A stretch of 64,000 nt of DNA from Streptomyces sp. NBC_01294 (GTDB lineage Bacteria > Actinomycetota > Actinomycetes > Streptomycetales > Streptomycetaceae): positions 2,793,001-2,857,000 of the forward strand of contig NZ_CP108423.1 of the NCBI RefSeq assembly GCF_035917235.1, written 5' to 3'. The notes beneath the pieces were generated by a model. It made no database searches. It had not been told where the DNA came from and was given only the letters and a program-made list of their open reading frames with translations. Positions 14,186-15,575 of this stretch are shown piece after piece (the stretch's first letter is position 1; each line of letters begins with the position of its first letter). A program made the position numbers and the translations under genes.

Positions 14186-14515
14186 TTAGTGCATGACGGC
14201 CATGGCCAGCGCACGGCGGGCGCGCATGGAGACGCGCTCGGCACGCCGCTGCATGCGGCGGGCGGCGACCAGGCGTACGGCGTGACGCTCGACGTCCACC
14301 TCACGCATGAGCTCGTCCATATGAGCACGAGCCAGGGCTTCTGGGATGAGTTGCATTTCGCGGGTCCTGTTCTGACGCGAGGTCATCGCGCCGGCGGTGA
14401 TGAAGTCTGCGTGGGCGGCGCCGTGGGGCTGCTCGCTCGTGGTGTGGGCGGTCATGAGGGCCTGCTTCAAGGGGTCGTGCGTCAGGGGGCGGTCGATGGT
14501 TCCGATGGCGGTCAT
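14186..14515 (-). CDS. Basic helical protein downstream of wblC
   Basis: 109 residues. Its start (ATG 14515) overlaps the wblC stop by 4 bases, so it is translationally coupled to wblC. The C-terminal half is strongly basic and helical (RHAVRLVAARRMQRRAERVS, then MRARRALAMAVMH). The N-terminus is His/Thr-rich and probably disordered. No domain is recognised. Coupling suggests coexpression during antibiotic stress. A strong hairpin follows. Confidence 0.65.
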   Translation of the reverse strand: MTAIGTIDRPLTHDPLKQALMTAHTTSEQPHGAAHADFITAGAMTSRQNRTREMQLIPEALARAHMDELMREVDVERHAVRLVAARRMQRRAERVSMRARRALAMAVMH

Positions 14516-14883
14516 GCCGCGACAACCGGGTTCTTGCGCGGACGGCCACGGGGCCGCTTGCGGGCGACGACGACACCCTGGACGAAGAGCTCGCCACCCC
14601 AGACACCCCAGGGCTCGCGGCGCTCGATCGCCCCGGCGAGGCAGGCCTCGACCAGCGGGCAGGTGCGGCAGAGCGACTTGGCGTACTCGACGTCGGCCGG
14701 GGACTCGGCGAAGAAGACCTCGGGGTCGAAGGTACGGCAGGGAACCGGGACGCCGAGGTTCTCGATGGCGTCGTCGAGCGCGGTCAGCGCGGTGAGCGGG
14801 GTCAAGGTGTGGTCCTCCGGGACTGCGGGCGGGGAGATCGTTCGGGACTGCGGTACGGACGGGGCGTGCGCTTCGAGTTGCAC
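14512..14883 (-). CDS. wblC: WhiB-family regulator WblC (WhiB7)
   Basis: 123 residues from GTG 14883, which has GAGGAAG upstream; the frame is open to 14955 but known WblC proteins begin QLEAHAP. The four [4Fe-4S] ligands are Cys49, Cys72, Cys75 and Cys81 (CRTCPLVEAC), followed by the GVWGG turn (residues 93-97). The C-terminal RGRPRK AT-hook (112-117) distinguishes WhiB7/WblC from other Wbl proteins. It binds the HrdB/SigA region 4 and activates intrinsic antibiotic-resistance genes when translation is inhibited. Its own leader contains an upstream ORF, terminator and antiterminator (described separately), implying control by transcription attenuation plus autoactivation. Confidence 0.95.
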   Translation of the reverse strand: MQLEAHAPSVPQSRTISPPAVPEDHTLTPLTALTALDDAIENLGVPVPCRTFDPEVFFAESPADVEYAKSLCRTCPLVEACLAGAIERREPWGVWGGELFVQGVVVARKRPRGRPRKNPVVAA

Positions 14884-15010: not shown

Positions 15011-15053
15011 ACAAACAGAAGGGCCGCGGATCCCGGGTGGGGTTCCGCGGCCC
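15011..15053 (-). terminator. Intrinsic terminator in the wblC leader
   Basis: On the minus strand, a perfect 10-bp stem (GGGCCGCGGA and TCCGCGGCCC; arms 15053-15044 and 15030-15021) with a 13-base loop is followed by the T-rich TTCTGTTTGT. This is a full factor-independent terminator placed 138 bases before the wblC start, where read-through must be regulated. Confidence 0.85.
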
Positions 15054-15121
15054 TGAAGGCGCCGGCCTGATCATGCGATCAGACTGGATCACTCCAGGGT
15101 TCGAGCCCACGGAAGGCCCAC
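15021..15121 (-). promoter_or_regulatory. Attenuator: antiterminator/terminator switch of wblC
   Basis: The minus-strand segment 15121-15107 (GTGGGCCTTCCGTGG), inside the upstream ORF, can pair with 15050-15037 (CCGCGGAACCCCAC). This gives 13 base pairs (one G-U) around a 2+1 internal loop. The second partner contains 7 of the 10 bases of the left terminator arm, so the two structures exclude each other. Pairing is read directly from sequence. The inferred mechanism is that ribosome stalling in the upstream ORF changes which hairpin forms. Weak local hairpins (CCAC-CTGAT-GTGG at about 15130-15118) could hold the antiterminator strand back. Confidence 0.75.
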
Positions 15122-15408
15122 ATCAGGTGGTGCTGCTGCTTCGTCTGCTTCGTCTTGGCTCCGGCACCGGCTGCGGCTGCGGCTGCGAAGCCATAGCCGC
15201 CATGCGCCTGAGCTTCTGCTGCCAGTACTGCCACCGGTGCCAGGGTCGGTCGCTCATTGCGCTCACTGACCGGAAGGGTCGCCAGCAGGGCGGGGCGGTC
15301 GGCGGAAATCGCGGACACACCGGTACCCAGAAGGGAGACGGAACCGAGCAGGCAGGAAGCGTCGACCGAGCGATCGGTCATTTTGGTGAAGGTCATGAAG
15401 CTGGTCAC
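15079..15408 (-). CDS. Upstream ORF (leader protein) of wblC
   Basis: 109 codons from GTG 15408, with a strong GAGAGGAGG site 9 bases upstream; ATG 15396 is an alternative. The N-terminal part (FTKMTDRSVDASCLLGSVSL) is followed by Ala-rich stretches (AAEAQAHGGYGFAAAAAAGA), a basic KTKQTKQQHH and a short end MWAFRGLEPWSDPV. The stop lies 25 bases before the terminator stem, and codons Met-Trp-Ala-Phe-Arg-Gly cover the antiterminator strand. It most likely acts as a translation sensor for wblC rather than as a functional protein, though a stable product cannot be excluded. Confidence 0.65.
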   Translation of the reverse strand: MTSFMTFTKMTDRSVDASCLLGSVSLLGTGVSAISADRPALLATLPVSERNERPTLAPVAVLAAEAQAHGGYGFAAAAAAGAGAKTKQTKQQHHLMWAFRGLEPWSDPV

Positions 15409-15525
15409 TGGTCTCGCCTCCTCTCGGCGTCTCGGGGACCCGGCCCGAGGGCCTGTCCCATGCGTATTCGGATAAGTACAGCACGGATCCAGGGCTTTGG
15501 AGAAGCCACCGTTTCCGTTGCTAAG

Positions 15526-15564
15526 AACCTATGGGTCTTCGCTGGGCATGTGCAAACTATTTTT
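15526..15564 (-). promoter_or_regulatory. Candidate WblC-autoactivated promoter
   Basis: On the minus strand AAAAATA (15564-15558), then TTGCAC (15555-15550), an 18-base spacer and TAGGTT (15531-15526). An A/T stretch just upstream of the -35 hexamer is the known signature of WhiB7/WblC-dependent promoters, where the AT-hook contacts the minor groove. It sits only some 15 bases beyond the uvrD2 stop and would give a leader of about 640 bases to wblC. Confidence 0.6.
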
Positions 15565-15575
15565 CCGACGAGTTT

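Follow-up and report, generated by a model that had tools for sequence, protein, structure and literature searches.

The level of intrinsic tolerance to drugs in antibiotic producers and mycobacteria is determined by whiB7/wblC, and the 5′ leader of the mycobacterial gene was reportedly described by Burian and Thompson in 2018. In that leader, an upstream open reading frame (uORF) is followed by a conserved stem-loop with a U-rich stretch, and transcription is attenuated (PMC4128351). Attenuation of whiB7/wblC mediated by a uORF was published by Lee, Lee and Roe (2022; Mol Microbiol 117:179; 10.1111/mmi.14834), as cited in PMC11550727, PMC9618640, PMC10727445 and PMC13393426, which bears out the statement of a first-pass annotation of the DNA analyzed here that such attenuation is known in principle. 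The citing literature describes this attenuator as responding to ribosome inhibitors and to amino-acid starvation (PMC11550727, PMC12121999, PMC9618640, PMC10727445).

The window analyzed here is a stretch of 64,000 nucleotides from the chromosome of Streptomyces sp. NBC_01294. It contains, on the minus strand, a leader element that we identify as a ribosome-controlled transcription attenuator of the whiB7/wblC type, with a probability of roughly 93%. As far as the attenuator of Lee, Lee and Roe is described in the papers citing it, the two share the gene, the long leader, the uORF, the intrinsic terminator and an antiterminator overlapping both the uORF and the terminator. The following features, all on the minus strand, were distinguished.

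15526..15566, minus strand: putative wblC promoter, with an A-rich box GGAAAAAT (15566-15559), a −35 element TTGCAC (15555-15550) and a −10 element TAGGTT (15531-15526)
15417..15422, minus strand: AGGAGG, the ribosome-binding sequence of the uORF, 8 nt upstream of its GTG, read directly
15079..15408, minus strand: uORF of 109 codons with a GTG start, ending in ...MWAFRGLEPWSDPV, stop codon TGA at 15081-15079
15107..15121, minus strand: 5′ strand of antiterminator helix P1, within the uORF codons MWAFRG
15092..15099, minus strand: 5′ strand of antiterminator helix P2, CCCTGGAG
15065..15084, minus strand: antiterminator hairpin P3 (15084-15077 paired with 15072-15065), which holds the uORF stop codon
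15051..15058, minus strand: 3′ strand of P2, CTTCAGGG, of which 15054-15051 are common to the terminator arm
15037..15050, minus strand: 3′ strand of P1, of which 15050-15044 are common to the terminator arm
15011..15054, minus strand: intrinsic terminator, with arms 15054-15044 and 15030-15020, an inner helix and a T-rich tail (15020-15011)
14512..14880, minus strand: wblC (whiB7 orthologue), 122 codons, GTG start at 14880, Pfam Whib E 2.6e-15

On this strand a gene for a UvrD-like helicase (end 15576) is followed by the promoter, the uORF, the terminator and wblC. The wblC gene was matched in all 199 genus genomes and, at E 1e-20, in 169 of the 197 genomes of the class; the best matches in two genomes, G116 (7.6e-10) and G135 (9.9e-11), may be a paralogue. 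The promoter of wblC in S. coelicolor is reported to be autoregulated, with a WblC box GAAAWY upstream of the −35 element (PMC7157823). In the window, GGAAAAAT precedes TTGCAC and is close to GAAAWY, which is expected 3 nt upstream of the −35, with no exact match in this strain. A loose promoter pattern, written from this window, is matched by 128 of 129 Streptomyces leaders, and a simple sigma-70 scan found no promoter at this site. A 109-codon ORF downstream (14515-14186, minus strand) has a 4-base overlap with the wblC stop, and its translation may be coupled to that of wblC. The ORF was matched in 137 of 200 loci, the number of the Streptomyces loci, in stretches free of stop codons, and showed no Pfam or NCBIfam family.

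A rho-independent terminator is present between the uORF and wblC, and it shows covariation across the class. It consists of a GC-rich hairpin of 11 bp (15054-15044 paired with 15030-15020) with a 3-bp inner helix, followed by TTCTGTTTGT at 15020-15011; the 10-bp stem of the first-pass annotation was thus correctly placed, the real one having an additional A-U pair. The segment 15011-15060 folds at −30.2 kcal/mol, against −17.2 ± 2.8 for shuffled sequences (z −4.6), and none of 200 shuffles was as stable. A terminator pattern search matched 59 of 61 genus genomes, with unrelated second hairpins in several among the matches listed; since the pattern also caught these, a covariance model (see below) was used instead. 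In a Term-seq study of S. clavuligerus the words wbl and whiB are absent from the main text (PMC8269248).

The competing structure has three tiers. P1 comprises 13 bp, i.e. an outer helix of 5 bp (15121-15117 with 15041-15037) and an inner one of 8 bp (15114-15107 with 15050-15043), exactly as previously annotated; P2 (15099-15092 with 15058-15051) and P3 (15084-15077 with 15072-15065) have 8 bp each, and both stack on P1. The segment 15035-15125 folds at −47.8 against −34.1 ± 3.6 for shuffled sequences (z −3.8), and none of 200 shuffles was as good, while the duplex of the upstream part with the terminator arm reached −28.3, compared with −17.8 when the upstream part was shuffled 200 times (p 0.010). 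The antiterminator overlaps the end of the uORF as well as the 5′ arm of the terminator. Its upstream strand lies within the uORF, as the first-pass annotation had it, the 5′ strand of P1 being formed by codons MWAFRG near the uORF end, and the stop codon TGA (15081-15079) sits inside P3. The two folds are mutually exclusive and the overlap at 15044-15050 is real, but its annotated extent of seven bases was too small: with P2 and P3 stacked on P1, the whole 11-base terminator 5′ arm is taken, the bases common to both folds belonging to P1 and P2. The outer 5 bp of P1 are the least conserved part of the antiterminator. They are absent from the Streptomyces consensus fold (37 rows), in which inner P1, P2 and P3 are kept, and of their five pairs, three are broken in 17-20 of the roughly 117 Streptomyces rows.

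Within Streptomyces (117 distinct rows of 129), pairs were kept in 95.3% of cells for P1, 99.5% for P2, 95.6% for P3 and 99.6% for the terminator. Covariation within the genus, suggested earlier as a check, says little here, since the strands hardly vary: 14 of 918 cells in P3 were changed on both sides, and P1, P2 and the terminator had none. In the test for a partner strand, the terminator arm beat shuffled sequences at p 0.05 in all 37 Streptomyces loci. Sequence identity in the genus exceeds what pairing requires, and wobble positions are fixed even in uORF codons distant from the switch. Both observations are what would be expected if the conserved block were mainly under another constraint, such as the uORF peptide or a protein- or ligand-binding RNA, with the alternative pairings as by-products. 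We regard this explanation as extremely improbable, given the covariation above shuffled and slid controls described below and the lack of any Rfam family at gathering score.

Comparison across the class was based on loci L001-L200. No terminator was located in five of them (L008, L159, L171, L174 and L195), and L190 was set aside because the hairpin picked there was wrong. The finder of arm hairpins required a GGC start; a freer scan gave similar arms, with none found in 13 of the loci scanned, and among the other-genus leaders listed, most carry the arm GGCC[G/A]CGG. After removal of duplicates and of stretches that were too short or contained N, 184 loci were left, and a 94% identity filter reduced these to 93. 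Two of these with a misplaced terminator (L098 and L099) were omitted from the consensus folds and the partner-strand test (91 tested), and are still rows of alignment A1. The sequence-only alignment A2 has 59 rows, 5 from Streptomyces and 54 from other genera.

A scan of column pairs in A2 made P1, P2, P3 and the terminator visible. For the antiterminator, 69.0% of the cells were paired (31% unpaired) against 63.7 ± 0.7 in shuffled alignments, and the covariation score was 0.215 against 0.144 ± 0.009, neither value being reached by any of 500 shuffles; as related rows are not independent, such covariation numbers are not probabilities. Cells changed on both sides numbered 92, against 51.1 ± 6.0 in shuffled alignments (0 of 500) and at most 49 in slid structures, a count that is biased towards the tested structure, because this was chosen after scanning A2 itself, and that speaks of P1 mainly for the other families, since the Streptomyces rows are out of their own P1 register. 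The covariation of the antiterminator strands sought by the first-pass annotation is therefore present at the level of the class. Counting the pairs that show a double change (16 against 13.5 ± 1.5) is a weak measure, since 40 of 500 shuffles reach that value; in P3, five of the six pairs recognized class-wide had changes on both sides. The terminator was paired in 93.6% of cells, with 21 double-changed cells against 3.6 ± 1.7 in shuffled alignments. RNAalifold applied to A2 returned no antiterminator (energy 0.0). In single loci of other genera, a partner strand for the terminator arm reached p 0.05 in 27 of 54 and p 0.01 in 10 of 54, the other 27 missing p 0.05, and the family mean z was negative in all 19 other families.

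A covariance model, R1, was built from A2, with the P1 strand of Streptomyces left unmodelled. At E 0.01 it matched 114 of 148 class genomes and 63 of 81 genera. All 97 hits with E 1.1e-6 or better are closely followed by wblC in the same orientation, with a median distance of 77 bases between hit and aligned wblC stretch. R1 also matched all 48 loci taken from the uORF relatives and the window, which are close relatives of its training rows. The wblC leader is the sole match below E 0.05 in its own genome (next E 0.089), and a few genomes have a second, weak match elsewhere. Under strict filters, R1 gave no match in some wblC-positive genomes, e.g. six of family f27 (G322, G340, G357, G371, G384 and G395), which are small-genome relatives; the attenuator may have been lost or have diverged there. 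Rfam gave no match in the window at gathering score and nothing credible at E 1, where the two weak hits in the leader scored 17.2 and 14.5 bits and the respective gathering cut-offs are 40 and 100. For the RNA element described here, no Rfam match was thus found.

The uORF is probably translated, judging from the conservation of its frame and the ribosome-binding sequence. Of 137 Streptomyces loci, in which six genomes are represented twice, 136 gave a match to it, the sole miss, L008, being on a contig that starts 414 bases upstream of wblC. The nearest named records among the matches listed were from Streptomyces sp. NRRL F-2580 (95%) and S. xanthophaeus (94%). An ORF of at least 20 codons with a stop starting 16-36 nt before the terminator arm was found in 53 of 54 other-genus loci, a count for which the longest ORF was taken and which has no chance control.

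In many other families the uORF ends in W-x-P-P-x-stop, mostly WSPPV, with the stop codon at P3. Of the 53 leaders from other genera (loci L117-L198), 36, in 13 of 19 families, carry Pro-Pro among the final four residues, and the remaining 17 uORFs are without it; elsewhere in the same ORFs it accounts for 16 of 6389 adjacent pairs. The spread of the first proline codon of this ending (CCA 24, CCG 6, CCC 3, CCT 3) hints at selection on the residue, with kinship uncorrected. The RNA itself is another possible reason, as the second proline codon falls in P3. The window uORF ends in S-D-P-V, and most Streptomyces uORFs also have D-P. We tentatively propose, while considering it rather unlikely, that the uORF end acts as a brake: pausing at Pro-Pro, together with slow release, would keep the terminating ribosome parked on P2/P3, making OFF the default state, and the switch would sense the loss of this ribosome; in Streptomyces the brake would have drifted to D-P. 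Such a brake, if true, together with the fixed A- and T-ending codons upstream, would show ribosome pause sites on the whiB7 uORF. According to a passage in PMC12121999 (2025), no test had been made of stalling within the whiB7 uORF. Literature searches on proline and alanine codons in leader peptides listed no pertinent paper, although one may exist.

In 129 leaders, many wobble positions of the uORF (15408-15082, minus strand) are fixed in a way that runs counter to the codon bias of Streptomyces. Residue −57 is encoded by CGA in 129/129; GCA makes up 122 of 129 Ala codons at −53, GGT 126 of 127 Gly codons at −80 and CCA 127 of 128 Pro codons at −2. GC3 of the uORF is 75.5%, against 91.3% in uvrD. 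In the pooled leaders alanine makes up 17.7% of uORF residues, and GCA 19.8% of Ala codons, against 5.7% in uvrD and 9.5% in wblC. GCA codons were considered as an alanine sensor; this reading is not claimed, because few leaders are significant singly (25 of 129 at p 0.05 and 5 at 0.01). Two further blocks within the uORF are conserved, a GACCGA/TCGGTC hairpin (15379-15364, minus strand) and, about 40 codons on, CGACCGACC (15252-15244, minus strand), within which CGACCGA complements TCGGTCG in the first block; they are perhaps a second switch or a polymerase pause.

The arrangement of these elements suggests how the attenuator may work. As polymerase leaves the uORF, P3, P2 and P1 would fold first and occupy the whole terminator 5′ arm. 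An undelayed ribosome would pass the P1 5′ strand and rest on the stop codon in P3; because it would hold P2 and P3 open, the terminator arm made later could capture its partner, and transcription would end near 15011-15020. With ribosomes stalled further upstream or not loaded, the antiterminator would stay closed, polymerase would pass and wblC would be made. The proposal of the first-pass annotation that slowed uORF ribosomes switch on wblC agrees with the conclusions that PMC11550727, PMC9618640, PMC10727445 and PMC13393426 convey for orthologues, and similar induction is likely in this strain.

Growing transcripts were folded with stretches blocked by assumed ribosome footprints. For transcripts ending at 15036 or 15031, P1, P2 and P3 had probabilities of 0.98-1.00 with no ribosome or with a ribosome over 15200-15150. 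A ribosome over 15098-15067 removed P2 and P3 (by construction) and left P1 at 0.86-0.91 before the terminator arm was made, and one over 15128-15098 removed P1, with P2 near 0.5. Once the terminator 3′ arm was complete, the terminator won at equilibrium in every ribosome state modelled (0.82-0.99). Read-through must therefore rest on the antiterminator forming first and on its slow displacement, a kinetic course that we infer. The same dominance at equilibrium would suit a constitutive partial terminator that merely lowers wblC expression, with a non-regulatory upstream helix and induction from the autoregulated promoter alone, and the promoter is indeed strongly conserved and, as reported for S. 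coelicolor (PMC7157823), autoregulated. That hypothesis is, however, highly improbable, as uORF-dependent attenuation is reported for orthologues (PMC11550727, PMC9618640, PMC10727445), the antiterminator strands covary across the class, and an ORF stop lies near P3 in 53 of 54 other-genus loci. The reading as a ribosome-controlled attenuator accordingly remains the preferred one.

In attenuation of the trp/ilv type, the position of the ribosome chooses between antiterminator and terminator, and a ribosome at a stop codon masks one strand. The wblC switch resembles it in this logic, but its uORF has about 100 codons and no single dominating amino acid (alanine, the 17.7% given above). The mycobacterial whiB7 leader, as far as described, is like the Streptomyces one in the arrangement of uORF and terminator, whereas the four loci of family f6, which we take to be mycobacteria-like, differ in having GGCCACGG/CCGTGGCC arms and, in two of them, uORFs ending in RGTI and RSFI. 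The leaders of the S. coelicolor ABCF genes are5sc and tiaA are reported to combine a uORF with a predicted terminator/antiterminator and induction by ribosome inhibitors; unlike the 109-codon uORF of the wblC leader, theirs have 3 and 9 residues, with stalling at the start codon caused by one drug group (PMC12421871). With base-level pairing partners, the model R1 and a stop codon within the antiterminator, the switch becomes easy to annotate and test. Its principle is already published for whiB7/wblC; our additions, namely the base-level layout in three tiers, the covariation and distribution of this form throughout the class and the Pro-Pro ending of the uORF, are possibly new relative to the 2022 paper.
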